Assembly: GCA_001630475.1 (NCBI GenBank)
Contig: KV419404.1
Coordinates: 1-23,571, forward strand
Source: Sistotremastrum niveocremeum HHB9708
Taxonomy: Eukaryota > Basidiomycota > Agaricomycetes > Sistotremastrales > Sistotremastraceae
Length of the DNA: 23,571 nucleotides
Direction of reading: 5' to 3'
Shown here: piece after piece, positions 1 through 23,571 of the stretch
Position numbering within the stretch: position 1 is the first letter of the stretch
Layout: the number at the start of each line of letters is the position of its first letter
Made by a program: the position numbers and the translations under genes
Notes under the pieces: model-generated
Seen by the model: only the letters and a program-made list of their open reading frames with translations
Told to the model about the DNA's origin: nothing
Databases searched by the model: none

Positions 1-95
1 GCCTAATCTCGAAGATTTCCACAAAAAATGACCCTCCCTGCGAAACGACGCGACACGTCGGAGTTGAATTTTTGGCGCGTCGCTGCCTGTCCCCA
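1..95 (-). mobile_element. 5' terminal fragment of a second transposon copy
   Basis: These 95 bases match positions 17636-17730 base for base. That second stretch is the 5' (right) end of the transposon at 14220-17730. The terminal motif TGCCTGTCCCCA ends at 95. The orientation is the same, so the body of this copy lies to the left of the window. No transposase sequence from this copy is visible here. The perfect match suggests both copies moved recently, or that one end was copied. The 8 bp just outside (atatatgg) would be the target-site duplication to look for at the other end. Confidence 0.85.
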
Positions 96-215
96 ATATA
101 TGGTCTATTAGTGTCTATTGGTCACATATATACTGTATATATATCATATACCATGAATACATGCTCATAGATGGGGAAAATACCACTACATGACCCTCTG
201 ACCACCCTGGTTGGG

Positions 216-344
216 GACCCTTAAGGGTCTTCCCTGAGTATCGGTCGCGACCGTGGTCACGACTGGTCATGACTGCGGTTGCCGGTTGCCTGATTTTCAG
301 AAACTGAGGCAACTGGCAACTGCAGTCCAGTCGCGACTTCGGTC
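216..344. repeat. nested imperfect inverted repeat (foldback)
   Basis: The arm at 271-291 pairs with 307-327 at 19 of 21 positions around a 15-nt loop. Pairing extends outward in interrupted form, from about 247-264 to about 328-344. A perfect 14-bp palindrome (gacccttaagggtc) sits at 216-229, immediately after a TGGGGAC motif (212-218) that resembles the transposon terminus. It may be the remnant of a small foldback element. The coding-like frame at 308-787 begins inside the right arm. Confidence 0.5.
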
Positions 345-787
345 CGGTTGCCCAATACGACCAGTCACGTGGACTGGACCTTGGAACTCTAGGACCGACC
401 GCGCACGAGCTCGTCGATTACCTCCTTCTGCCTACTACGAGCCGCGAGACGCCTGACTGGCTCAGAATACGCTCCTTAAAGCTGCACGATATCGACCCAC
501 CAACAGTCCAGTATCCTCTTAACAACGCAGTTTTACCTTCCGCCTTCTTTCAAGCATTTCGGTATTTTCATGCTCGTCGAAGAGGCGACAACGGTCTCGA
601 GGCCTTCGCTGTTCGTTCTGGTTTTGGAAGATCCTTCGTCTGGCCCGGAGTGAATCTAGACAGGACGGAGCTTTTCGACTTTCCTGACCACAACCCGGAG
701 ACTCAGGCTTTGGAGATGAGACAATTCTATTCGTGGCTTATCGCGTGCACTCGGCTGGAAAAACTACCCCCTTGGCTGTTGATGTAG
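308..787 (+). pseudogene. unrecognised coding fragment, probable last exon
   Basis: A plus-strand frame is open from 308 to TAG at 785-787 (159 codons) and has no ATG near its start. The strongest coding look is from about 407 on, in a stretch rich in Leu, Trp, Phe and charged residues (for example LVDYLLLP near the start and WLIACTRLEKLPPW near the end). Possible 3' splice sites lie at 325 (tgcag, which keeps this frame) and 300 (gattttcag, which does not), so this may be the 3' exon of a gene whose 5' part was replaced by the inverted repeat and transposon end. I do not recognise the family. The leucine-rich C-terminus would fit an F-box/LRR-like mushroom protein, but that is only a guess. 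Another frame at 733-1062 is hydrophobic and unconvincing. Confidence 0.3.
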
Positions 788-1275
788 ATTCTGCGGTCTC
801 ACGTTCTTTGGGTTTCACGTCAACAACTCTCTTCTTTTGTTCTTGTGCAGCTTTTTATCTTATATTTTATTCTGTCATCAAGCGGCTTAACTGTATCAAC
901 TATCCATCAATTCCTGTCTGTAATACTCTGTATCCCATCGGTTTGTACTACTTTGTAGAAGCAATTGAAACTATTACTTGTTGTATCATCTTGTCTGCTA
1001 TAAACCCTCTTGTAATTGCATCCTCATGTCTTTCCTTGGATTGCCTTGCTTCCAAAACTTAAGTGACGCCTCGGCTTCTTCGAAGCACCGGAAAGAGATG
1101 GGTTTGAAGCATCCAGTATTTAGAATGAATGAATGAAGTTTATTTTTGTACTTATTGCTTATATGACAAGATCGAATGTACCATGGACAATCCTACTGAA
1201 TGACTTGCAGTACATCCGGACCGAAGCCCAGGAATGACATGCAGGACGTAGTCAGTTGGCATAACCCTGCAATGC
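788..1275. other. noncoding stretch
   Basis: No convincing gene is visible. The first half is pyrimidine- and T-rich and could be the 3' flank of the frame ending at 787. A short GAAT tandem run (gaatgaatgaatgaa) lies around 1122-1136, followed by T-rich sequence. Confidence 0.4.
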
Positions 1276-1463
1276 AATGAACGACTCACGGGAGGAGGAT
1301 ACCCCTCCGGTCCGTCGACAGAGGCTCGTCAGCAGACAACAGAGGGTCCGCTGGAGTACCCGGACTCCAGGACAGGATGCACATGGATCTCATTCGCCGA
1401 CATGATGCGAATGGAGGTGCCGCGAGACGATGGCGCGAGTTCTTGACCTACCTAATGTCTTGA
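1276..1463 (+). pseudogene. decayed coding fragment, left side of inverted duplication
   Basis: A plus-strand frame is open from about 1279 to TGA at 1461-1463 and includes the peptide GGAARRWREF. It matches the minus-strand frame on the other side (about 2822-3023), which contains ESAARRWRVIDLPNVL. The similarity extends outward beyond the near-identical arms at a lower level (GATCTC and CGCCGA blocks, and a shared ACTCAC-G start). A small length difference at about 1437-1443 (gcgagttcttg against gcgttattg) shifts the left copy into an early stop. Family unknown. Confidence 0.4.
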
Positions 1464-1681
1464 AGATGCACGACTCCCTCCGCTGCCGGCGGATGCAATA
1501 AGCCCGTTCACAACAGTACCCTGCTGCCGATGTTTTTCATAAAGACAATCCTCTCATTAACCGGGCTGTGACAGCGGGCGGAAGGGAGCGGCGGGACAAG
1601 GAGGTCGATGCTGAGAATCGACCGTAGTGGAATGGGAGCAAGGTGAAGAAGGTGTATTTCCGACGTGTCCGTTATTTTATG
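1417..1681 (+). repeat. left arm of 1.5-kb inverted duplication
   Basis: The arm runs from GTGCCGCGAGACGATGG to CGTTATTTTATG and pairs with 2639-2900 in reverse complement with only scattered mismatches and two or three short length differences. In this arm a plus-strand frame reads on after the stop of the outer fragment (for example VFHKDNPLIN around 1532-1561). The arms therefore carry decayed coding sequence rather than a typical noncoding terminal repeat. No matching target-site duplication is visible beside either outer edge. Confidence 0.8.
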
Positions 1682-6425: not shown

Positions 6426-8753
6426 TCAAGAGGCCGAGTCAGAAATCGAAGAAGCCGGTCCTTTCCAACACTTCGTCCAATCTTTGCCATGCACAAAGTC
6501 TGAGATATCTACACGAGTCTCGGGAACTCCAATGACTCGGTGTCTGTCACTCCACACGAATCCTCGGCGGAATCTTTCCGGCACCCAGAATAATCGCGAC
6601 TCGTCAGGTCCTGTGTCATACACCCATCCGTCCCAGGGGTCAGGACTGAACCAATATTGATCATCTGCGGGCTTGCTTTTCCAAGGTAAAGCAGATGGTT
6701 CGGTTGCAATGTCCCATGTATGCACAACGCCGTCTGCCGTGGATGCAGCCATGATTTGTCTACCGTCAGGCGTGAATGCAAGAGTCTGAGCCTTGCAGTG
6801 GGAATGTAGGAGAGCTCCAAATTTCTTGCCGGTGTCCACATCCCAAATATGGACAGTTCCATCTTCAAATGCTACTGCAATCCTCCGGCCGTCCGGAGAG
6901 AAAGCTGCTGCACCGACACGGCTGCCTTCCGCATAGTCCGCTTCAAAATTAGGGCCGAACATGCTCAACCGTCCTTTGATGATCGTCCATAATTGAATGC
7001 CCCTAGTGGAGGCCGAGAGAAGTCGCCTTCCTTTGGGCGAAAATGTCAGTACCACATCTTCATCAGCTCGCCCATAAATTGCGTGTTTGAGCGGTTCTTC
7101 AGCCTCTGGATCCCAGACTTCATATCTATCGGGAAAAGTCACAGATACTATCCGGTTTCCATTCGTGGCAAACACAGCAGCCCAAGCATTGTTTCCAAAA
7201 CCGTCGAGAACATGCAACGGCAATGCAGTCCCAGATCGGATATCCCAGACTCGGAGTGTTCCGTCCTCGGAAGCTGATAGGAGCAGCTCTGCGTTACGAG
7301 AGAAAGACAGGCTTGTGATATTGTCACCATGCCCTTCAGACAGATGATGGTGCTGCTCGGGAGTTTGCCAGTGCCAGAGTCCAACAGAATGTTCCTCGTC
7401 TGCATATGCTAGTGTCGTTTGATTCGGTGAGATGGCCATCTTGTTCCACAAGTCATTGTTTGCCCGTACTGACTTTCGAGCACGAACTTTTGCAGACTTG
7501 GTCTCCTGAATCTGAATAATCTGTTTTCCAATAGCCAAGGCAATGATCGAGCTATCAGATGATATCTGGACGCCCACGACGTGCTGAATGGGAGATACGT
7601 AATGATGAGGAGCAGAGAGCGCCCGCTCGACGTTCCACACATGGATGATGCCCTCAGACGTGATGCAAGTCAATTGCCTTCCATCCGGAGAGAACCCCAG
7701 GGTCGTTGGCGAACCGTATTGGCTTTGAAGGGGCTTGCAGAGGAGACGCCCGTCAGTTGCATCCCATAGGCGGATCGTGTGATCCCCTGAGCCGCTTGCG
7801 ACAAGCTGACTGTGACGAGAAGCAGCGAGGCAGTCGATGTGAAGCGCATGTTGCTCGTGCACCTTGGTGTGCCATATTTCCTGTCCTTCCTGGAGATTCC
7901 AAGCACGTATTATGCAGTCATCATCATAAGAAAATACTGTACTATTGTCAAGGGAGTAGATGGCCTCTTGAGCGCGGGCTTTGTGACCCTTGAAGATCCT
8001 CGGGCTGAGAGTCTTAGCACTCCAGTGGCCGATCTGATGACCAGACCTCTCTCCGCCCCACCGGAGTAGACCTTCGCCATCCGGCGAGAATGCAACCTCG
8101 CCGTCATCATCAAATGAACGAAAATCTAAGAGCGATGTAGAAATGATATGCTCTCCAGTTTGAGTGCACCACTTCTGGAGAGTGCCTTGTTTGGTGAGGG
8201 AAAGAACATAACGACAATCAGGGGAAATCATGCCATGAATGACGTCTTCAGGCGGATGGATCTTGATGCGAGATGTGCGGCGGGTACCGTCCCCGATTTG
8301 CATCACCTCAAACTCCAAATGCTGCCCGAGCAGATATATGGAACTTCCATCGGGAGAGAATTGCCAATGACGAAGTTTGGTAGCGTTTAATGTTTCTTGC
8401 CTCCACGTCGGCTCGTAAGATGTGGAATCAAACAGCACAAAAAGCGGGCCATTCGAAGCCAATATGTGAGCACCATCCGGCGAAAATAGTGTTTGAACAA
8501 CACCCATACCATCTCTGACTAGATGAAAGAGTGTTTTCTCGAGGGGGCTGTCGGCAGTCAGCAGCTCTGATGTCACGACAGGTAGACGATGGAGTAGGTA
8601 GTGGTGGTAGCGATGCACCCAATGGGCAGGGTTAACGTATGGCAGAGTGGATAGATACACATGAGGGCCACTTGTTGTCTGGAAATTGCTGGTTTGGCGA
8701 AGACATGCCTCGATCTCAATGCTAGTGTCTGTGAGCTCCTTATTGTTTTCCCA
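6426..8753 (-). CDS. NLR A WD40 double propeller exon (exon 9)
   Basis: A single 776-codon exon encodes about 14 WD40-type repeats, judged by spaced FSPDG and W(D/N) motifs such as GDHTIRLWDATDG, EDGTLRVWDIRSG and EDGTVHIWDVDTG. That is the number for two seven-bladed propellers. Several early repeats are degenerate. After the repeats comes a conserved tail (DPWDGWVYDTGPDESRLFWV, then TRVDISDFVHGKDWTKCW) that I associate with WD40-ending mushroom NLRs. WD40 arrays are the presumed ligand-sensing part of fungal NLRs. This frame also stays open upstream through the intron to 8858, which could mislead gene callers into a separate start at MNQFWRL. No lesion is seen in this exon. The likely 3' end lies beyond the stop at 6426. 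Confidence 0.85.
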   Translation of the reverse strand, partial: WENNKELTDTSIEIEACLRQTSNFQTTSGPHVYLSTLPYVNPAHWVHRYHHYLLHRLPVVTSELLTADSPLEKTLFHLVRDGMGVVQTLFSPDGAHILASNGPLFVLFDSTSYEPTWRQETLNATKLRHWQFSPDGSSIYLLGQHLEFEVMQIGDGTRRTSRIKIHPPEDVIHGMISPDCRYVLSLTKQGTLQKWCTQTGEHIISTSLLDFRSFDDDGEVAFSPDGEGLLRWGGERSGHQIGHWSAKTLSPRIFKGHKARAQEAIYSLDNSTVFSYDDDCIIRAWNLQEGQEIWHTKVHEQHALHIDCLAASRHSQLVASGSGDHTIRLWDATDGRLLCKPLQSQYGSPTTLGFSPDGRQLTCITSEGIIHVWNVERALSAPHHYVSPIQHVVGVQISSDSSIIALAIGKQIIQIQETKSAKVRARKSVRANNDLWNKMAISPNQTTLAYADEEHSVGLWHWQTPEQHHHLSEGHGDNITSLSFSRNAELLLSASEDGTLRVWDIRSGTALPLHVLDGFGNNAWAAVFATNGNRIVSVTFPDRYEVWDPEAEEPLKHAIYGRADEDVVLTFSPKGRRLLSASTRGIQLWTIIKGRLSMFGPNFEADYAEGSRVGAAAFSPDGRRIAVAFEDGTVHIWDVDTGKKFGALLHSHCKAQTLAFTPDGRQIMAASTADGVVHTWDIATEPSALPWKSKPADDQYWFSPDPWDGWVYDTGPDESRLFWVPERFRRGFVWSDRHRVIGVPETRVDISDFVHGKDWTKCWKGPASSISDSAS

Positions 8754-8811
8754 CTGCCAAAAGAGTGTATGAGATAGTGGACGATAACGCTTGAAGGAAA
8801 CATTGGTGTAC

Positions 8812-10324
8812 CTGAGACCACCTGATGACGCGTGCAACAAGCGCCAAAATTGGTTCACCGTATTCGATCAAGTTGAGGACTTCGAGCCAGTGCAGCAGGT
8901 TTTGTTTGTAAAACCATTGGATCTGAGCGGCGGTGTCCGAATCGTAAGCGATGTGAGAAAGGTGGGCCGTCCAAACAGGCAGGCATACTGGAGTTGTGCA
9001 GATAGGATATGTTGTTGCTGATATAGATCGAGATGGTCCGACGACTCAACTCCGCACACGTTGAACCTCAGTTTCATCACCATCTGGTTCAGGCATCCTT
9101 TCACCAGTCTCTGATGATGATCCGAGTCGTTGACATGATAGCTTGAGCTTCGACATTCGTCCATCAAGAAATCGATCAACGACTTGTGAATAGGGGAAAT
9201 CGGTTTGGTGTGGTCATCTACCCCATGTAACAGTGATGCCATGAACGGAAGGATGGTCTTCATGGCTTCCTCGCACTTGTCATGGGAATCCAAAGCAATG
9301 TGAGCGCTATAAGGAAGAGGCTGCTTGAAACAAGCTACCCGCCCCATGACATCTCGAAAATAAGCCAGAGCTTGTGGTTCGTGGCCAATATTTGTCGCCA
9401 GAATTGTACGGTAAAGCGGGTCAATTCCGGGGTCTTGGTCAAGTTCCAGAACTTGTTTGAGGCGAGCTGCGGGTGTCCAACCCGGAGTTGGAACAAGAAT
9501 GTAATCACAGGCTGTAGCAGCAAATATCATCAGACCGCCCGATTTAATCACCAGAAGGGAAACTGCTCGATCACTGAGCCAATCCTGATTCTTGAAGTTT
9601 GCTCTCTGCTCTCTGAATCTGTCCTCTACCAGTGTCCGAATGTCACTGTCATCTTCGGAGCAAAGGTACTGAATGTCGAGCACCGTGTGCTGTTGACCCT
9701 TTGAGAATGCGGCCACTATATCTCGCTCTGGTCGTGAAAACAGGACGAATTGAAAATTGGGAGGTAGCTCGTGGAGTCGAGTCGTCAGCACTTCGATCAA
9801 CTCGGATCGTTCTTTGCGATCCCCGGCTTCATCTAGCCCATCGATCACGAAGAGGATTGGAAGAGGTATGTAAACAGAGAAGGCAGGCCGGAGCAATAGC
9901 AATTCGAATTGCTGTGAGATGGAAGTCTCGTAACGGATGCTCCGATTGCTTCCGACTATCTTGTTGAGAGCGGACCGCCATGCTGGATAAGCGCTCGCAA
10001 GATCCTGAGAGATCTTTGGGATCAGAGAATGAGGAGGGACATCTTTCTGAGTGCGATAATTGAAGAAGAAGGATGATCCCATCTTTCCGTGAGGCGACCA
10101 GAGCTGGACAAGTCGATGGGCGAGGAATGATTTTCCGGTTCCCGCCGCGCCTTTGATCCACAACACAGAAGGGGTTGCTTCTATCTGATCGTCTAGTGCA
10201 AGACCACTTGCGAATTTCTGAAGCACGTGCAGAGCATGCTCTCGTGTTCCCGGGAGACAGGCTTTCTTCGGATCAAAATTCGCTCCTCTGGGATATATCA
10301 TGTCATTGAGATTGATCTGGATAT
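8812..10324 (-). CDS. NLR A NACHT NTPase exon (exon 8), frameshifted
   Basis: This exon carries the nucleotide-binding switch module. The Walker A motif GAAGTGKS lies at 10128-10151 and the Walker B PILFVIDGLDEA at 9825-9860, followed by FSRPERDI (sensor-1-like Arg). The conserved lead-in reads YPRGANFDPKKACLP. These are hallmarks of NACHT/STAND ATPases, which oligomerise on activation. Relative to copy B, one T is missing from the run at 8973-8975. After it the frame runs to a stop at 8868, whereas restoring the length would continue LLHWLEVLNLIEYGEP to the donor at 8811. The exon length (1513 nt) is exactly one short of what the flanking phases require, which confirms the deletion. Intron 8 is 58 nt (8754-8811). 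Confidence 0.8.
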
Positions 10325-10378
10325 CTACAGAAAGAGCGACGTCAGTGTCACAAGCACTCCGCGATGTCGAGCACTCAC

Positions 10379-11823
10379 GAAGGTCTTGTACCTCGTCCAG
10401 GGATTCCAATTGGACGCTCTTGATCTTCATCACGGCTGCACGGATGCTCTCTGCGGTGAGAGCTTGAAATGCGGTCTTGATGTCTTGAAACTGCCCTTCA
10501 AATTTCTTGATGGTCTCGTCAGTCTTTGATGCCGCATTTCGCAGGACGCGTAATGCTATCGTGCCCGGTTACCCTTGTCTGGGACTCAGCTATGTTTCAC
10601 TCACTGAATGTCTTAGTTTTCCGGTATTTCAGTATGAAATTGCAGCAATCCATGGTCACCTGAGACACCTTGTCCCAGACGGATTCCAAAGCTTTAGAAT
10701 TCTGCCATGTCCGCTTGGCGGTCCAAATGGACTCATAGGTGTCTTTCATAGCCATGATGAGCACGTTGACCTTGTCGTCTCGGTCTCTTTGCGCATTCAG
10801 AACCTTTGAACAATTTTATGAGACAAACGCGGGAGCGCTATCTGAAATACCCTAGGGGTAACGAACCCTGTACGCCGCGGTGAGAATGCTAAATGCCACC
10901 TTCGCATACGGGTGAAGCTAAAGATCATCGCCGCTCAGCAAAGGGATTGAGACAAGAAAGTGCTCAGATACCTTGGATATCTTTTCAATGATTTCAACAA
11001 TGAGATCCACACTCTCCATAACCGTGACGAGACACTCTCCGATAGGCTGCATTGGGTCTGCACCATCTAAGACACAATCCATCATATCGAAGGCATGTTC
11101 TATAGCTGGTGACGGGTCTGAGACGGATGGCAAAGCCACAAGATTTGAGGCTGCAGGTTCGAGAGCGTCCGGTGCCTGCCTTGACATCGTAAGTCGAAAT
11201 CTCAAGTGAAGATCTGAGGCTGTGCCATCGGCACATTTCCAGACTCTGATCATTCTATCAAGAGGCTCTGATTTTGCAAGTTATGACATGTCTTTTCAGA
11301 TTGGCGGTATACGTACTTGACTCAGCCAAGTCCTCGACTACATCCTCAGCCTCGTAGCGCAGTTTCTCTTTGCTTTTCTTCTGATAGAACACTCTTATCT
11401 TCAGAACTTCACCGGATCTAGCATTTGAGCTGACTCTAATCATGCAAAGTGATAGCGAGGCAGAAGATCAGGGCTCACCACGGGAACTTCAACTCGTCAG
11501 TCCAGCTCAGCGCTCTTGTGTTTCCAGACCAAGTAGTTCTCTCCTTTCGTCCGCAGTACTCAAACTCCACCAAGAGTGCACTGCGCTTCTTCAACGAAAA
11601 GGAACGCTGCTTAGTTGTGGCATGTACCGTCCCACAGATATCTGGGTCGCTCGTCAGTTGCCGCAGACCTGAAAGCGAACAGATACGTACTCGAGACAAC
11701 CAGCGTGTTCCTGTGCCAATCGTCATCTACAAGCATGCTAGACAATGTTTCAATGTTCTGTCAAACGACGACAAGTAAGGCCCTTCTGTACCTCTCGCTT
11801 TCGTCGGTCGCTGAAGTGGCCAT
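10379..11823 (-). CDS. NLR A N-terminal region: C2-like domain and linker (exons 1-7)
   Basis: Exons 1-4 encode a region that looks like the C2-like N-terminus of agaricomycete NLRs. It holds short beta-type segments, ending with PLDRMIRVWKCADGTA and LHLRFRLTMS, features I associate with that family. Exon 5 has only 17 codons (LHPYAKVAFSILTAAYR). With exon 6 (VLNAQRDRDDKVNVLIMAMK) it forms the conserved helical segment that precedes NACHT domains in mushroom STAND proteins. Exon 7 carries KTDETIKKFEGQFQDIK, matched by KTDKTIKDFEGQFEDIK in copy B. The ATG at 11823 is preceded by ACC (minus strand ACCATGGCC), a good fungal start context. The TGA at codon 21 lies between LLVVV and QNIETL, with coding character on both sides. 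If it is real, translation could begin only at a later ATG. Confidence 0.6.
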
Positions 11824-13468: not shown

Positions 13469-14219
13469 GCAGGGGACTTGCGTCGTTCAGAGTCAGATCG
13501 GGTGCCACCCCTCAAGATTGAAATACGATCTCTATTGCTGAGAGCCGAAGGAATGGATCCGAGGGCTGGCTTGGCTAGGATTGAGGTTGGCGAATTTCCA
13601 ATCTCTTCTTGTATTATCGTGATTCGGCTGACGTGGAAATGACATGACAGACGAATACCTTTGACATAAATCCTTCAGTGCATCGCACGGTGGCGAGTGA
13701 TTGTGTTGGTTTCAAAAAAGGCAAAGAAAAATCCCCTTGAAACTCTGGACTCCGGCGACTAAGGCCTGAATGACAGTCGTCCCAGCCCTTGAGAGGCTAA
13801 TGTTCCAGAATCATTCCGCTGCCGTCTCTTGAAAGCAATCCGTGTCCTGTCTGAGAAATAAAATCATCATAAAAGGCCCAAAAGGGATTCAAAGTACTTT
13901 GAAAACTGAACACTTTCTCGAACAAGGACCAGGCGATTTTCGGCAGTACCTCTGCGCGAGATGGGAGGTATATCTCTGCTCGCCAGAGGCGAGATTCGCG
14001 TCGAGGGCTGATCCGAAGAGAACGCAGTGAGAGTGTACAGATAGTGATGTTTCTTTTTCTTGAGGCGTTTCTTGACCAACACTGGCGCAACTCTAACCAA
14101 CGTTCGTGTCAAGGCTGCGGAGGATGGAAGGAGGGGAAGGGTCACTTCGAGTAGATGCCTGCGAGAACTATGGTCAAATAAAGGAAGCAGGGTTTAAGAC
14201 GCATGGGTCACCTACGAAT
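13469..14219. other. stretch between the two-exon gene and the transposon
   Basis: Minus-strand frames at 13529-13645 and 13867-14145 are the longest. The latter includes a lysine run (KKRLKKKKHH) and is not convincing. I see no repeat or RNA gene. The transposon begins at 14220. Confidence 0.35.
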
Positions 14220-14416
14220 TGGGGACCGGCAAGCCCTATAACGATTTTGTGACGCTTACATAATACTTTCACTGGTCGCGTCATGGCAAGTCTGCACAGT
14301 TACCGTTCTCCCTCTCTTTCCTCGCTATATCGCCATTATAAAATCAAGTAAATATTATACGACTTTTCTATGATACTATAAATGCTATATATATATAAAT
14401 CAGAAGCCCTCCTCTG
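14220..14416 (-). other. 3' untranslated end of the transposon
   Basis: This AT-rich stretch includes a run of 'tatatatata' near 14388-14397 and several 'ataaa'-like motifs on the minus strand, suitable for 3' processing of the transposase-like transcript. No coding frame is visible. Confidence 0.4.
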
Positions 14417-17306
14417 TCAACAGTCATCCATTTCGTCTTCATCTTCGAGGCCCTCACCAGATACATTCTCCTGCTCAATTGGACTCTCTATGCCTGCCGA
14501 CGAGCTTGACTGCTGTCTCAAGACCTCAGCTTCATACCTCTTCACAGCTTCCAAAACAGCTTTGAGTCTTTCCGCCCTCCTCGGCATGTCTTTAGCACGC
14601 GGAATCTTGGGATCTGTGAGCCTAAGTCGTTTGATTTGTGTATCAAGCTCTGCTCGCGTCATCTTGTTGATACGAACACGGTCTGTGATAACCTCCATCA
14701 GCATAATCGCCTCCTTGGCTTGGCGCTTCTGGGTGTCTTTGTCTCGTTTCTTCTGTACTTCAACCCGGTCATGCTCGATGCCCTCTTTCTTCCGGGCTGC
14801 CTCCAATCCACTTTGATCTTGTTGCCGGGCTGTCTGGCGAACATGTTTATCAAGATCCGCATTGCCTACCTGCTTAATATAGAGGCCGGTTTTATTTTTC
14901 TTGTACTTGGCCTTGGCATTGTGCATTGACAATGTTCCGTTCGGAGAGGCACGCATGTCGACGCGCAAGGTTCCTAAAGCTCCCTCGTTCCGGTCGTTGG
15001 TCGGATGCATCCACGAGAGTTTTCTCTGTGACGCCGTGAGTGAGGCAATCTTGCCTCCTACAGCATATTCAGCTGAAAACCGACGCCACGTTTGCAGAGC
15101 CCCCTGAAAGAAGGCAACGAGCAATGGCTTCAGGTGAGGAAGCTCTGCACTCATTAGTTGAATTTTATAAACAACTTCGGGTCGTTCCCATGGCTGTCCG
15201 TCCATTGCTCCAGTCTCGTGAGAAACGGTCTCGGAGACGAGAAGGTACGGGTTCTCTATGATAGCCTCGCAATGTGTGATAACTTGGTGATGCAGCAGAC
15301 CGAGATGCAAAGCATTCATGTCTTTGACATTGGGGCTTCGGATTCTTCGCAGATATGGATGACTGATCGACTGAGAATAGAGAGCGAGAACGGATAGTTC
15401 CTGTAGTGTGGGGGCATCATGTAAGGCATCCCAGAGATTTTGTTCCATATGATTTAATGCACGAGAGTCCTTTTTGTCTTTGACAAGTGCTAATAACTCC
15501 TTGTACAATGGCAGATGCACGAGTAATTCTGAGGCAGCCTCACAATGTGACTGATATCGAGTGTTACTCGTATCTGGGAAGTCCACAGCATAGCCAAGCA
15601 TCGCAACAAAGAACCAACGAAAAGTGTCCTGTTGACCTTTCTTGTCATCTTTGTGATTAAACACAGCACCGGCAAGACTGGTTGCTTTAATTGCACCACC
15701 AATCGAGGTTTCGATTGCACGCAACTTGGCAGCAGAAGGACCTGGTTCGGCAGCGGCGGCAGCGTTGTCTCGATTCATCAGTTTGCGTGGTCCTGGAATG
15801 CCTGAGATTACCCAATAGCCAACCATAGCAGTGTTACCGCCTTTGACTGCATTAAGCTCTTTGTGCATGGAACATCCGACCCAAACAAATTGGGTCTCCT
15901 TTTGTTGGTCCTCTGAGCTCAGGAGTGCAAATCCTCGATCTCCAAGTTCTCGATGAAGGGATTTGAGCATCTCCTTGTGATGCCTCTCGCGCTCTTCGTC
16001 AGATAGGAGCTGCCAGTTTTCATGTCCGCCAAGGGCCGTGATGGTTTCATGGGTTTTGGTCCATAAGAGAGCTAAGACCTCGTCTGATGGCATCTCCAGG
16101 ATCATATTTTTGCCTCTGATCTCGCGAGCACATGCAGTCTTATATTCTTCAACAAGACGGCAGAGCTTTTTCTGATCCTCGGCGTGATCCGTATGCATGC
16201 CAGTGAATTTCGCAGCAAACGTTCGAGGATCGATCGGATTTCGCCGGCCAGCGGGAGTGGCGTTCCATGCATTCGCTATGGCCTCCAGGCGAAGCATCCA
16301 GCCACGGAGCTGCTCATCGCTTGTATGGCTGGGCGCGGAATCTATGCCCAGAAAGAGATCCTCATGCTCGCCATTGGCTGCTATGGCGGTGATATTCTTT
16401 GACTCGTAATTACGGTGCCGGTGTGTCGTTCCGTCCCCGCTGATCGTAATCCCTGTGTAGTTCAGTGAATGACAGATATTTGGTAAAAAATTCGACTCAT
16501 TGCTAAAGTACCAACCTGCGGCTTGATTCATAGCATCTGCAATCTGGATGTCGGCATATATCCCCCCTTCTCGATCACACCGGCGAACTGTGCGAGCATC
16601 GAGCTTCCCAACAATTTCTTTTCCTAGAGCTTCACCCACTACATGCACTACAGCACCGACTGACCCAGCAGGTACACCTAACGAGGACAACTCTCGGGTC
16701 ATCGACCGGATAGCTGGAGGGTATACTCCGTTCTCTTTCAGGCAAAATGTTCGACTCTCGTCAGTATGTTTCTGCACAGCCTGAGTGACTGCTCTCTCAA
16801 TCTGTTGCGGGTGTCTTGTAATCCGGGCTTTCTGAGCTCGACACCGTTTCCGATAGAAAGCAATCTCCTTCTCGAGTGTTTCTATTCTGCCGCGCATCTA
16901 GATATATCTGAATAATTATGCTTCGAGCCAATCATTAAAAATCGATCACCTGATTTGTCTCCGACGAAGTGCCATGAAATTTTGCTAATTCTCTTTCCAT
17001 CTCTGCCTTTAATGATTTCAGGCTTGCCGACTTCTCGTCGAGATCATGTTTCAGCTGTTTCAGCTTGGCTTTGGTCCGGCTGACTATCTTTCTTTCATTC
17101 CGGAATTTCTTCTGATAATCAAGAATGTTAAGGTGTCGTTTAGAGGGTTGGTGAGACGGCGGTGATATATTCTCTTTGTCATTCTCCCAAGACTCAGGAC
17201 CCGAGGACTCTCCCGTTTTGTTCTCAGCCGCTAGGACTAGTGCCGCATGACTTTGTTCACGTTGTGCAGGGCTTCGACGCTTCTTAGCACCTAAACGGGA
17301 GCCCAT
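14417..17306 (-). CDS. transposase-like protein with N-terminal coiled coil
   Basis: Exon 1 (16950-17306, 119 codons, from ATG at 17306) and exon 2 (14417-16897) join in phase 0 across a 52-nt intron (16898-16949, CAG|GTGATC ... ATATCTAG|ATG). The product would be about 945 residues. The join makes the coiled coil (about 65-145) continuous, which argues for one protein. The start is basic (GAKKRRSPAQRE), a possible nuclear localisation signal. The core shows SGDGTTHR (Asp about 274), GMHTDHAED (Asp about 356), GCSMHKELN (Cys 461/His 464) and TNDRNEGALG (Glu about 757). This spacing resembles an RNase H-fold DDE transposase, and C-x2-H-x2-LN recalls the hAT C-x2-H motif. The tail is basic/coiled, then acidic (EDEDEMDD). 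I recall similar proteins repeated in mushroom genomes and usually called hypothetical. Catalytic roles are inferred. Confidence 0.7.
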
Positions 17307-17635
17307 TCACAGGTGTGAGAGTGAGCCCATGCGGAAGCGAGACGCGACGCGACGCGTCGAGTGGATTAGGTAAGCGCTTTTCCTTTGTTTCGAGAGAAAC
17401 TTCTTTCTGGAGCCACACGCTCCCAGAAAAGGCGCGGTTTCTGGCGGAAACTCGTTTTATGCACATGCCCGTGAAAATGTTGGGAACAGATTTTTCAGAT
17501 ACAGCCATTCAGGGGAGATACCGGCACTAACTATATGCTACAGGCCGAAACCGAAAAAACTGTTCCCAACACTTTCTTCAGAACCCCGTAAAACCTCGAT
17601 CTAGAACTCATTTGGATTAAATTTGAGGGCGGGGA
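17307..17635 (-). promoter_or_regulatory. 5' leader/promoter region of the transposase-like gene
   Basis: No convincing protein is encoded. It contains the tandem motif gacgcgacgcgacgcgtcg (17341-17359). It also has an imperfect 20-bp inverted repeat (17477-17496 against 17553-17572; gttgggaaca ... tgttcccaac) separated by 56 nt. Such repeats inside a transposon end are candidates for transposase or regulator binding. Function is inferred only. Confidence 0.4.
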
Positions 17636-17730
17636 GCCTAATCTCGAAGATTTCCACAAAAAATGACCCTCCCTGCGAAACGACGCGACACGTCGGAGTT
17701 GAATTTTTGGCGCGTCGCTGCCTGTCCCCA

Positions 17731-18479
17731 CTAGTACGAAGTCGATTGTCCTATCGCTTCTCAATCTCGAATCTCCTCCGACGCCGTAAACGCGACATAT
17801 GCGGGCTGGAGTCGACAAGAGAGGCAGTATTGGTGGCATACAGCTTTCGAGATGGCTTTGAGGCCGTCGCCAGTTTGAGGAGTTCAAAGTTTATATGGAT
17901 GCTGGGCTTCGATAGGTCAGCGGTGAAAAGGCCAAGCTGTCGATCTCTTCTCACGCAAATTTCTCAGACGTGTCCCAGGGCGTCAAAGGAAGATTTGAAC
18001 GTATCGATATATCATGTTTCAGAGTCCAGATGAGACACCTGAGGAAATGCGTAAGACACCATGGTTGCCGAGCAGAGAGAATTCACCCGAGCTCGCAGCG
18101 ACGACAGCCGTTACAGAGATCTCTCAAATGATAGTCTTGGAGAGATGTTTTATTCCTCCGACGTGGGAAGGGGATCCTGGTACAAGCATCGCAACTTGTA
18201 GTCCTCATTCACGATCATCGAGTGAGGTTGGGTTCCGGCGAGTCCGAGCTATTTGTTCCTGCATTTCCTTTCCTTCCGACGCCGCTGATCCTGACCAAAA
18301 CCTCCATGAAAGTTGACTCTCTACTGTCGTCGGCCATCTATCGTCATTAATCTTGCTCAGTTCCAGTCGTGGCCACCAACGTTGGTGGCTGTGGTGTCGT
18401 CAATATCCTCTGTGATCTCCGGATCCTCTACTATTACTGCCCCGCTCAAGATCCACCAATATCGCCTCCAGTTTCCACA
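17731..18479. other. flank between the transposon and the duplicated segment
   Basis: A plus-strand frame running out of the transposon stays open to 18033 (containing RRRKRDICGLESTREAVLVA). It may be coding relic of the gene whose 3' part follows at 18480. By position it would correspond to about 4730-5480 beside copy A, but similarity is not obvious by eye. Confidence 0.3.
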
Positions 18480-19432: not shown

Positions 19433-20623
19433 TCACGAAGCCGAATCAGAAATCGCAGACGTAGGCCCTTTCCAACACTTCGTCCAATCTTTGCCATGCA
19501 CGAAGTCTGAGATGTCAACGCGAGTCTGGGGAACTCCAATGACTCTATGCCTAACACTCCACACGAACCCAGGGCGAAATCTTTTCGGGACCCAAAATAA
19601 GCGCGACTCGTCAGGTCCTGTATCATATACCCATCCATCCCACGGGTCATCGACCACCCAGGAAGCATCTGTGGGCTTGCTTTTCCAAGGTAAAGGAGTT
19701 GGTTCGGATGCAATGTCCCATGAATGCACGACTCCGTCTCCTCTGGATGCAGCCATGATTTGTGTACCATCAGGCGTGAATGCGAGGGTGTGAGGCTTGC
19801 AATGAGCATGCAAGGGTGCTCCAAATTTCTTGCCAGTCTCCACATCCCAGATTTGGATATTGTTGTCTCCAAATCCTACAGCGACCTTGCAACTGTCCGG
19901 AGAGAAAGCTGCTGAGCAGACGTCTCCATGGTCCGCTTCCAGATTATGGCCGAATTTGCTCAATTGTCCGTCAATCATAGTCCACAGTTGAATGCCACTC
20001 TTCGATGCTGAGAGAAGTCGCGCCCCGTTGGGCGATAACGCAAGTCTGATATCTAGATCAGGTGGCCAAGTAATACGTTGTTTGAGCGATTCTTCAGCGT
20101 CTAAATCCGAAACTTTGATGGAGTGATCGTAAAAGTCAGCAGAGACGATCCAGTTTCTACCCTCCACAAATACTGGTACAGCATTTATAGGTAGCGACAT
20201 TCCATTGGTCTGGATGACACGGAAGGGCGATGCAGTCCCAGATCGGATATCCCAAACCCGGATTGTTTTGTCGTCAGAGGCTGACAGCAGCAGCTCTGCG
20301 TTGGGCGAGAAACATAGTGACCGGATATAGGCAGTATGTCCCTCATACAGATGATGATCCTGCTCGGGAGTTTGCCAGTGCCAGAGTCCGATGCAATGCG
20401 TGTCGTCAGCATATGCCAGTATTGAGTTCTCCGGTGAGAAGGCCAATACTCCGTAGGTGTCAGGTCTAGACCTCAATGATTTTCGAGCAATAACTTTCGC
20501 GGACTTGGTCTCCTGAATGCGGATGACATCTGATCCGACAGCCACGGCCATAAGTGAACTGTCGGTTGATATCTGGATGCCAAAGACGGCTCGTGAAGAG
20601 CCTGCATAGTGATGCGGACTCAT
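19433..20623 (-). CDS. NLR B second WD40 propeller, out of frame with the first
   Basis: This frame resumes as SPHHYAGSSRAVFGIQIS and encodes the remaining repeats (for example DDKTIRVWDIRSG, DNNIQIWDVETGKKFG) plus the conserved tail DPWDGWVYDTGPDESRLFWV and TRVDISDFVHGKDWTKCW. The frame itself extends upstream to an ATG at 20656 in the overlap. The ATG at 20623 overlaps the TGA of the preceding frame (ATGA), so reinitiation is conceivable, though it is rare in nuclear genes. No Walker motif is present, so on its own it would be a soluble WD40 protein. Confidence 0.65.
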   Translation of the reverse strand: MSPHHYAGSSRAVFGIQISTDSSLMAVAVGSDVIRIQETKSAKVIARKSLRSRPDTYGVLAFSPENSILAYADDTHCIGLWHWQTPEQDHHLYEGHTAYIRSLCFSPNAELLLSASDDKTIRVWDIRSGTASPFRVIQTNGMSLPINAVPVFVEGRNWIVSADFYDHSIKVSDLDAEESLKQRITWPPDLDIRLALSPNGARLLSASKSGIQLWTMIDGQLSKFGHNLEADHGDVCSAAFSPDSCKVAVGFGDNNIQIWDVETGKKFGAPLHAHCKPHTLAFTPDGTQIMAASRGDGVVHSWDIASEPTPLPWKSKPTDASWVVDDPWDGWVYDTGPDESRLFWVPKRFRPGFVWSVRHRVIGVPQTRVDISDFVHGKDWTKCWKGPTSAISDSAS

Positions 20624-20628
20624 TGCGG
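20613..20628. other. 11-nt insertion flanked by TGCGG direct repeats
   Basis: On the plus strand the site reads TGCGG-ACTCAT-TGCGG, while copy A has a single version of the repeat unit (tgatgagg). The 11 extra bases are one repeat unit plus six bases, the form expected of a footprint left by excision of a DNA transposon with a 5-bp target duplication. Replication slippage with filler sequence is an alternative. Confidence 0.6.
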
Positions 20629-21768
20629 AGCAGAGATCGCTAGCTCGACATTCCACACATACGCAATGCCCTCAGTTGTGACGCAGACCAACCGCTCTCC
20701 ATCTGGAGAGAACTCCAGCGTGTTCGGCGAACCATGTTGGCTTTGAAGGGGTTTGCAAACCAGACGTCCGTTAGTTGCATCCCATAGACGGACAGTGCCA
20801 TCTTCTGAGCCGCTTGCGACAAGCTGATTGTCACGAGAAGCAGCGAGGCAGCAGGGGGAATCCGCATGTTGTTCATGCACCTCGGAGCGCCATTTTTCCT
20901 GTCCACTGTGGAGACTCCAAGCACGAATTGTGCATTCATCGTCACATGAAAATATTGTGGAATTATCGAAGGAATATATGGCATCTCGGATGGGGCCCGT
21001 GTGTCGATTGAAGAAACTAGGGCTTAGACCCTTGGCAGTCCAGCAAGAGATTTGATAGCCAGATCCCTTTCCTCCCCACCGCAGTAGACTTACACCATCC
21101 GGCGAGAGTGCAACATTGCCATGATCATCAAATATATCGAAATCTGGAAGGGTTGAAGGAGTCATGTGCTCTCCGGTTTGAGTGCACCACTTCAGAATAG
21201 CGCCTTGTTTGGTGACAGAACGAACATAACGACAATCGAAGGAAATAACGGCATGAATGATGTCTTCAGTGGGGTGGATTTTGATGGGAGATGAGCGGCA
21301 GGTACCGTCTATGATTTGCATCACCTCAAACTCCAAATTCTGCCCGAGCAGATAGATGCAACTTCCATCTGGGGAGAAATGCCAATCACGAATCCCGGTG
21401 GTGCTTGGATATTCGTGCCTCCAAATCGGCTCATAAGATGTGGAATCAAACAACACGAAGAGCGGGCCATTTGAAACACAAAGGTGAGCACCATCAGGCG
21501 AATATTGTGCCCGAGCAATATTGGTGCCATCTCTGACCAGATAAAAGAGTGTTTTCTCAAGGGAGCTTGGGTCAGTCAACAACTCCGAAGTCACGACAGG
21601 GAGATGATGGAATAGGTGACGGTATTGGCGATGTACCCAATTGGTCGGATTAACGTATGGCAAGGTGGATAGATAGACATGAGGACCGCTTGTTGTCTGG
21701 AAATCGCTACTTTGGCGGAGCCATGCTTCGGTTTCTGGGCCGATGTGTGCGAGCTCCACGTCGTCCCA
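20620..21768 (-). CDS. NLR B first WD40 propeller, ends at premature TGA
   Basis: From the intron 8 acceptor (21769) the frame reads WDDVELAHIGPE and then seven WD40-type repeats, including EDGTVRLWDATNG. It ends with VWNVELAISAPQ and a TGA at 20620-20622. In copy A the same place continues APHHYVSP. A product stopping here would join an intact NACHT to a single propeller. A start at 21759 would be an artefact of ignoring the upstream intron. Confidence 0.7.
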   Translation of the reverse strand, partial: WDDVELAHIGPETEAWLRQSSDFQTTSGPHVYLSTLPYVNPTNWVHRQYRHLFHHLPVVTSELLTDPSSLEKTLFYLVRDGTNIARAQYSPDGAHLCVSNGPLFVLFDSTSYEPIWRHEYPSTTGIRDWHFSPDGSCIYLLGQNLEFEVMQIIDGTCRSSPIKIHPTEDIIHAVISFDCRYVRSVTKQGAILKWCTQTGEHMTPSTLPDFDIFDDHGNVALSPDGVSLLRWGGKGSGYQISCWTAKGLSPSFFNRHTGPIRDAIYSFDNSTIFSCDDECTIRAWSLHSGQEKWRSEVHEQHADSPCCLAASRDNQLVASGSEDGTVRLWDATNGRLVCKPLQSQHGSPNTLEFSPDGERLVCVTTEGIAYVWNVELAISAPQ

Positions 21769-21825
21769 CTGTCGGAAAGAGAGTACGACAGTGCATGATA
21801 ACCCCTAAAGGAAAGAAAGATTTAC

Positions 21826-23571
21826 CTGAGACCACCTGATGATGTGTGCAACGAGCGCCGAGATCGATTCACTGTATTCGATGCAGTTAAGAACTTCAAG
21901 CCAATGCAGCAATTTTTGTTCGAGAAGCAATTTGAGTTGAGTGGCAATTTCCGAATCATATGTGATATCAGAAAGATGAACGGCCCAAAATTGGCAGGCA
22001 TACTTGAGTTGTGCTGATATGTTCTGTCGCTGCTTATCTTGATCGGCATTGTCGGACGTTTCCGCACCACAGACATTGAACCAGAGGTTCTTCGCCATCT
22101 CGCTCAGACAGTCTCGGAGCAATAACCTGCGATGGTCTGGCTTGCGAATGTGATACTCCACACTTCGATCTTTGTCAATCAGAAAATCGGTGAATGATTT
22201 GTGTATGGGAGAGATCGGAATTCCGCGGTCCTGTACACCGTGCAATAATGAAGCCATGAAAGGGAGTGTTGTCTCTGTAGCATTCTGATGCACCCCATGG
22301 CGATCCAAAGCCACGTACGCGTCATACGACAGCGGCTCTTGCAGGGATACCATCCGACCCATGACAGTTTGGAAATGAGCTGTGGCCTGTTTGTCGCTTC
22401 CGATGTTTGCCTGCAGGATCGCACTGTAGAGCGAGTCCATCTTAGGGACTTGCTCAAGCTCAAGGATATGTTTGAGACGGCCAGCAAAAGTCGAGCCCTG
22501 TACTGGAATGATAATGTAATCACATGCCGTGCCGGCGAATACCATCAAACCGCCTGACTTGAGCACCAGATGAGAAAGTGCTCCATCAGTGAGCCATCCT
22601 GCATTTTCGGGCTTCGCCTTCAGAGGTTTGAATTTATTCTCAACCAATCTTTCGATATCCCCGTCATCGGCCGTGCAGAGATCCTTCATATCAAGCGATA
22701 TGTGATGCGAGGAACTGGCAAATGCGTCCGCAATGTCGCGCTCTGGACGCGAAAACAAGACGAAGCGAAAGTTGGACGGAAGCTCGTGAAACCGAGTGGT
22801 CAGGACTTCGATCAACTCGGAGCGTCCTTCGCGGTCTCCTGCTTCATCCAGCCCATCAATCACGAAGAGAATGGGGTGAGGGATAAAGACAGCACGGGTA
22901 GGCTGGATCAACAACGAATCGAACTGCTGGAGAATCGAGGTCTCGTAACGAAGACTCCGATTCCTTTCGATGATCGCATTGAGTGCATGTTTCCAGGCTG
23001 GATAAGCGCTGGCAAGATCCTGAGAGAACTTTGGTATCAGAGAATGGGGAGGTGCGTCTTTCTGAGTGCGATAATTGAAAAAGAAAGAGGATCCCATCTT
23101 CCCGTGTGGCTGCCAGAGCTGGACGAGTCGATGAGCGATGAATGACTTTCCGGTTCCCGCTGCGCCTTTGATCCACAACACAGAAGAGTTAGAAGAGTTT
23201 CTTTGCATCTGATGATCGTGCAGTGCCAGTCCACTGGCGAACTTCTGAAGCACATGCAGGGCATGCTCGCGCGTGTCCGGGAGGCAGGCTTTCTTCGGAT
23301 CAAAGTTTGCCCCTCTCGGATATATCATGTCGTTCAGGTTAACTTGGACATCTATGAACACGACGATGTCAGCGTCACAGCTATACCAGATAACTACACA
23401 CTCACGAAGATCCTGGACTTCATCCAACAGTTCCAATTGGATACTCCGTATCTTGATCACAGCTGCATGGATGTTTTCTGTAGTCAGGGTTTGAAATGCG
23501 CCCTTGATGTCTTCAAACTGCCCCTCGAAATCTTTGATGGTCTTGTCAGTCTTGGAGGCCACATTCTGAAT
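21826..23571 (-). CDS. NLR B NACHT region (exon 8 and part of exon 7), intact
   Basis: Walker A GAAGTGKS is at 23143-23166 and Walker B PILFVIDGLDEA at 22840-22875, again followed by FSRPERDI. The lead-in YPRGANFDPKKACLP is conserved with copy A. After splicing of intron 7 the protein reads DEVQDL-H-VQVNLNDMIY. The frame is unbroken to the donor at 21825, where reading on would hit a TAG inside the intron, which supports the splice. The 3' part (LLHWLEVLNCIEYSESI) is the piece lost to frameshift in copy A. Loop regions differ between copies (for example extra residues after the LHDH stretch), so the two NTPases have diverged while keeping the catalytic motifs. Confidence 0.85.

Follow-up and report, generated by a model that had tools for sequence, protein, structure and literature searches.

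Transposases of the hAT, P, Kolobok and MuDR superfamilies carry a CxxH motif after the second catalytic aspartate, and a C/DxxH motif is found in Dada (PMC3706591). In the hAT transposase Kat1 the CxxH motif is needed for hairpin formation, and mutants cannot form hairpins (PMC4763223). Target-site duplications (TSDs) of hAT elements are usually 8 bp long, with 5-7 bp in hAT5, hAT6 and hAT7 and 7 bp in hAT7 of rust fungi (PMC12730594); DUF659 and DUF4371 are hAT models (PMC3985635). Here, we describe an element of 3511 bp at positions 14220-17730 (coding strand minus) of a 23,571-nucleotide stretch of Sistotremastrum niveocremeum HHB9708 DNA (contig KV419404.1), referred to below as the window. 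The window is the start of contig C11 of the host assembly (34.7 Mb, 111 contigs), whose KDZ transposases, NACHT/WD40 genes and short introns would suit a fungus, probably a basidiomycete. The element is best explained as an autonomous, recently active cut-and-paste transposon with terminal inverted repeats (TIRs), the main protein of which would be a DDE transposase of the C/DxxH type (probability roughly 0.87). As a complete transposon it is delimited by identical copies, the TSDs of its family and a paralogous empty site.

The host assembly was searched at the DNA level with the element. All copy counts are lower bounds, since the genome searches score the best candidates only; at least 23 matches were obtained. 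Three copies of 3511 bp are letter-identical: the window copy, C16:549048-552558 and C23:1418-4928. On C2, both ends and a TSD were found around an interior that reads N. A full-length relative of 3570 bp at C10:373692-377261 (L015; referred to below as the C10 relative) is 66% identical to the element and has the TIRs TGGGGATCGGCA and its own 7 bp TSD. Short copies fall into three groups: C28, C21, C55 and C58 (897-901 bp), in which 424-430 bases from the start of the element and 458 from its end are retained (92-95% identical); C3 and C45 (582 and 624 bp); and C27, C23:299046 and C7 (601-603 bp). Identity over the aligned bases is 100% for the pairs C28/C21 and C23:299046/C7 and 95.5% to 99.7% for the other pairs within groups, and this near-identity indicates recent movement in at least two of the groups. 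A right-end remnant of 43 bp was also found (C55:47857-47899), with no left end within the 801 bases read. Searching the host genome with protein P0003 (E up to 10) gave eight matches and added no new relative.

The flanks of 14 copies were compared, a set that leaves out the C55:47857-47899 remnant and a piece at window positions 1-95. A perfect TSD of exactly 7 bp flanks 12 of them, with twelve different sequences. The unit has moved as DNA: its ends are discrete, its target duplications are exactly 7 bp long, full-length copies at separate sites are identical and short copies have the same ends. The initial annotation had made its candidate DNA transposon depend on other copies with the same ends and had proposed aligning their flanks; such copies were found, with 7 bp TSDs in the family and without one at the window copy itself. 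A retroelement or Helitron was rejected because TIRs and 7 bp TSDs are present and the main protein has no reverse-transcriptase or helicase match.

At the window copy the left flank is TACGAAT (14213-14219, plus strand) and the right flank is CTAG followed by TACGAA (17731-17740, plus strand). This aberrant target duplication can be written TACGAA-T/element/CTAG-TACGAA, that is, 6 bp duplicated, plus a single additional base at the left and four additional bases at the right. We take the irregular flanks as an imperfect insertion or as later damage to the ends; an assembly error is also possible. The borders of this copy are fixed by the other copies, which share the same ends. Both flanks match an uninterrupted paralogue, C23:22578-22925 (94% and 95%). 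The joined flanks (800 bp) are 88% identical to the paralogue with 16 gap positions, 11 of which lie in a single gap at the junction, where the paralogue has a single TACGA and then C. This paralogous empty site fits the borders of the window copy to within a few bases. The surroundings of the insertion (14060-14219 and 17731-17930) are a repeated unit, with paralogues at C11:38338-38521 (84%) and C23:13042-13238 (78%) besides the one at C23:22578-22925 (94-95%).

The ends consist of a left TIR, TGGGGACCGGCA (14220-14231, plus strand), and a right TIR, TGGGGACAGGCA (17719-17730, minus strand), with TGGGGA invariant at both ends in eight aligned representatives. Borders formed by 12 bp inverted termini, as first proposed, agree with the ends common to the other copies. 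The TIR is short: 11 of the 12 outermost positions pair and beyond them there is no inverted run. In the alignment of the eight representatives a left end of about 70 bp (14220-14289, plus strand) is conserved in all five copy groups and a right end of about 55-59 bp (17672-17730, minus strand) is conserved as well; both are likely transposase-binding regions. Exact TGGGGACMGGCA occurs in the window only at 14220 (plus strand), 17719-17730 (minus strand) and 84-95 (minus strand). With up to two mismatches there are six matches in the window against 2.78 expected, and six were reached in 7 of 100 shuffles, so that the terminal motif alone is weak proof. In the whole assembly, the 16 outermost bases of the left end gave ten exact and 12 two-mismatch matches, compared with four for a backward control.

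The right part of the element is rich in the motif CGACGCG. Two subterminal motifs lie within 17681-17717 (at 17681-17687 and, on the minus strand, at 17711-17717), and three overlapping CGACGCG/CGCGTCG motifs are clustered directly upstream of the gene (17345-17359). The 3511 bp contain six CGACGCG in all (five in the right 511 bases and one in exon 2), compared with 0.10 per kb in the flanks. All eight representatives have the motif 44 nt from the right end, and seven of them also have it at base 58 counted from the left, where the window copy differs by one base. Also upstream of the gene is an imperfect inverted repeat with 34-nt arms that are 82% complementary (17473-17576). Pieces of 24 nt from this repeat match in the 897-901 bp copies too.

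An exact copy of the right end at window positions 1-95 (minus strand) had been taken in the initial annotation as confirming the right border. It does so, without being an extra insertion. C11:96-1512 is identical to reversed C23:1-1417, so the two contig ends overlap and the piece is the right end of the neighbouring C23 insertion, cut by the contig end. An independent second copy at 1-95 was accordingly rejected. Window positions 1-1512 thus comprise the end of the C23 element and the overlap with C23:1-1417; C11 and C23 adjoin head to head and are broken at the transposon.

The main gene was read on the minus strand as exon 1 (16950-17306; 119 codons, with a basic N-terminus and the first part of a coiled coil), a predicted 52-nt GT..AG intron (16898-16949) and exon 2 (14417-16897; 826 codons and a stop, with the rest of the coiled coil, a putative transposase core and a charged C-terminus). 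Splicing of exon 1 (17306-16950) to exon 2 (16897-14417) gives 945 residues. The intron was predicted from a reading of the sequence; it is supported by the C10 relative, in which a homologous exon 1 (38% of 125 columns identical; E 3e-17 when the two were compared one to one without filters) likewise has to be spliced to exon 2. The two-exon protein put forward at the outset was reproduced. The C10 relative appears to carry a further intron right before the first Asp motif, which the window element is without.

The core protein and that of the C10 relative are identical in 447 of 682 columns. Over 678 aligned codons the nonsynonymous divergence (dN, NG86) is 0.256; the synonymous divergence was not computable and is taken as saturated. 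Differences at codon positions 1, 2 and 3 are 0.24, 0.20 and 0.61 (678 codons). This dN together with the excess at third positions lends strong support to purifying selection having kept the 945-residue main protein.

A simple heptad test was applied to overlapping segments of 42 residues. Spliced residues 57-154, which span the exon junction, are coiled-coil-like in nine overlapping segments, each of which was equalled by 0-13 of 500 shuffles. In total 16 of 129 segments pass (15 or fewer of 500); the remaining seven are located further towards the C-terminus and each contain 5-8 prolines or glycines, so that the test is crude. The N-terminal coiled coil of the initial annotation is supported by this test and by the homologous exon 1 in the C10 relative.

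This gene might instead be a passenger or a domesticated gene, with another transposase moving the ends. The catalytic activity and the fold of the protein are predictions, which leaves room for such a case. However, two full-length elements, unlike each other in ends as well as protein, both have it as their main gene, and the protein is identical in three insertions; the other frames of at least 100 amino acids in the element are antisense to exon 2 (104-144 amino acids) or straddle the right end (119 and 142 amino acids). We regard a passenger gene as extremely improbable.

Four putative catalytic motifs were located in the protein, all encoded on the minus strand and all with the same residues in the C10 relative. 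The first Asp is D274 of the spliced protein (D155 of exon 2; 16433-16435) in the motif SGDGTTHRHRNYE; the second is D356 (D237 of exon 2; 16187-16189) in TG(M/I)HxDHAEDQKKL. C461-x2-H464 (C342 and H345 of exon 2; 15863-15874) lies in GCxMHK(E/D)LNAVKGGN, and the candidate third acidic residue is E757 (E638 of exon 2; 14984-14986) in MHPTNDxNEGALG. The motifs of the window element (SGDGTTHRH, TGMHTDHAEDQ, GCSMHKELNAVKGG and NDRNEGALG) fit the order D, D, CxxH, E. This is the hAT-like order initially described, and the residues stand at the positions numbered there. The main gene very probably encodes a DDE transposase of C/DxxH type, and the protein would have an RNase H fold.

Several observations weigh against an autonomous transposon with a C/DxxH-type transposase. 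The window copy and the 601 bp copy at C23:299046 are without a perfect 7 bp TSD. Many other acidic residues are common to the two proteins as well, in an alignment of two sequences only. The 105 residues between D237 and C342 (exon 2 numbering) are far more than separate the second Asp from CxxH in hAT transposases such as Hermes. AlphaFold models from single sequences were unusable (mean predicted local distance difference test score 38 for exon 2 and 46 for residues 140-350). No Pfam-A model matches either core protein (P0001, P0003) up to E 10. Among solved structures no related one was found by sequence, nor with a profile of the two sequences; a viral capsid protein that matched at E 0.93 was disregarded. 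Profile-profile alignment (hhalign) with KDZ and hAT pieces of the host gave no match, a null that is uninformative since a KDZ-hAT control found nothing either and the comparison had no power.

No Pfam model passes its curated cut-off for exon 1, the core or sub-regions, and matches below the cut-off (Kbp-5, KxDL and TPR_MLP1_2 for exon 1; MLLE and C8 for the core) were disregarded. The statement of the initial annotation that no superfamily could be named holds against Pfam-A and a small search of the open-access literature, the comparison set being without Repbase or fungal proteins. Among the literature matches listed, TGGGGAC termini with a 7 bp TSD were not described, which is weak evidence of absence. 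Searches beyond the host gave no relatives in plasmids, 164 pattern matches with none confirmed in prokaryote genome contigs and, in viral contigs, no pattern match in one search and 13 with none confirmed in another; these nulls say little because the collections searched are not of fungi. Related unnamed proteins are presumably common in mushroom genomes. From Pfam and the literature the best reading is a transposase of C/DxxH type (hAT, P, Dada, MuDR or Kolobok) with no named superfamily assignable.

The protein may alternatively belong to a diverged hAT member, like hAT7 of rust fungi, that Pfam misses, in which case nothing would be new above the family level. Points in favour of hAT are the motif order D, D, CxxH, E, the 293 residues that separate H345 from E638 and the subterminal repeats. 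The target sites show a weak lean to nTnnnAn, which echoes the nTnnnnAn preferred by hAT elements: 14 of 24 positions agree, a value reached by 2 of 2000 random sets and, in a stricter test over all symmetric positions, by 52 of 2000, the sample being small and the position having been picked after the counts were known. A TSD of 7 bp is moreover that of hAT7 (PMC12730594). Yet the element has no match to Dimer_Tnp_hAT (PF05699), DUF659 or DUF4371, whereas other parts of the genome give 21 matches to PF05699 and one to DUF659; no zinc-finger model matches the protein, and the 105 residues before CxxH count against hAT. We consider hAT membership a serious possibility, though short of even odds. 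The element would work like the hAT type; membership is not established, the hAT dimerization domain having been looked for without a match.

Membership of the KDZ group, with Kyakuja nearest, was weighed next to these results. Kyakuja makes 7 bp TSDs and occurs in Agaricomycotina (PMC12730594), and Pfam model PF18758 gave 19 KDZ matches in the host genome. None of the 19 lies in the element, however, and PF18758 matches neither P0001 nor P0003. The termini of Kyakuja are CA..TG without TIRs (PMC12730594), whereas the element has TGGGGA..TCCCCA with TIRs. The PF18758 null and the termini led us to reject KDZ membership, which is highly improbable. The 19 KDZ, 21 hAT-dimerization and single DUF659 matches indicate that KDZ and hAT families are detectable in this genome when present. 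The frequent KDZ-type transposase pieces of the host include several with in-frame stops.

An assignment to the P, Dada, MuDR or Kolobok superfamily would be in line with the C/DxxH motif known in these (PMC3706591), with the TSDs of the P element Galileo, which are mostly 7 bp (PMC4168063), and with the 6-7 bp TSDs of Dada (PMC3706591). No transposase Pfam model matches up to E 10, however. For P, neither the P-element domain PF12017 (Pfam-A, up to E 10) nor the Galileo target motif GTANTAC (PMC4168063) fits, the latter when compared with the TSDs of the element. For MuDR and Kolobok there was no Pfam match up to E 10, the Pfam models representing both not having been identified. Small RNA genes are the targets of Dada, and TIRs are absent from the Dada groups U6 and U1 (PMC3706591), whereas the element has TIRs; a scan of 13 loci with ARAGORN (bacterial code) found a tRNA in none of them, and small nuclear RNA (snRNA) genes were not searched. 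We regard this assignment as improbable.

If the main protein is the transposase of a cut-and-paste element, its N-terminal coiled coil would oligomerize it, and it would bind the conserved 55-70 bp ends and the subterminal CGACGCG motifs. Two metal ions would be coordinated by D274, D356 and E757, and C461-x2-H464 would be part of the active site, as it is in hAT. The protein would then cut both ends and join them to the target strands at a stagger of 7 bp, and repair would give rise to the TSD. The short copies are probably mobilized in trans, by this protein or by a sister protein.

The transposon lies between tandem paralogous NLR-like genes (window 6426-10568 and 19433-23571, minus strand). 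NACHT domains were found at 8871-10568 and 21808-23571 and WD40 repeats at 6429-8867, the scan having covered the WD40 part of the first gene. Each of the two genes is split over several open frames, which suggests introns or frameshifts.

The element is ordinary in kind and possibly new in lineage. A superfamily of eukaryotic DNA transposons that has not yet been named, defined by TGGGGA..TCCCCA termini, 7 bp TSDs, CGACGCG subterminal motifs and an N-terminally coiled-coil C/DxxH transposase with about 100 residues from the second Asp to CxxH, and with this element as the first member described, is a tentative and rather unlikely proposal. If the transposase lies outside the named superfamilies, it would represent a new branch of the C/DxxH clade and would show that annotation from profiles may overlook an autonomous transposon that moved recently, along with the short copies bounded by its ends. 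With three intact copies that are identical and short derivatives whose ends are defined, the element lends itself to direct testing in yeast, for example of CxxH and hairpinning compared with hAT in a different architecture.

Among the known systems, hAT elements (Hermes, Ac and Kat1, and hAT7) resemble the element in motif order, the long stretch before the Glu, subterminal repeats and, for hAT7, the 7 bp TSD; the element differs in its TGGGGA termini, its N-terminal coiled coil, the absence of zinc-finger and hAT Pfam matches and its TSD, the usual hAT TSD being 8 bp. Kyakuja has the 7 bp TSD in common with the element, but has CA..TG ends without TIRs, and its domain model PF18758 has no match in the element. 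P elements of the Galileo type are alike in a mostly 7 bp TSD and a C/DxxH-type motif and unlike in target motif, and the element has no P-element Pfam match. Dada shares the 6-7 bp TSD and the C/DxxH motif, but inserts in snRNA and tRNA genes and is without TIRs in its U6 and U1 groups.

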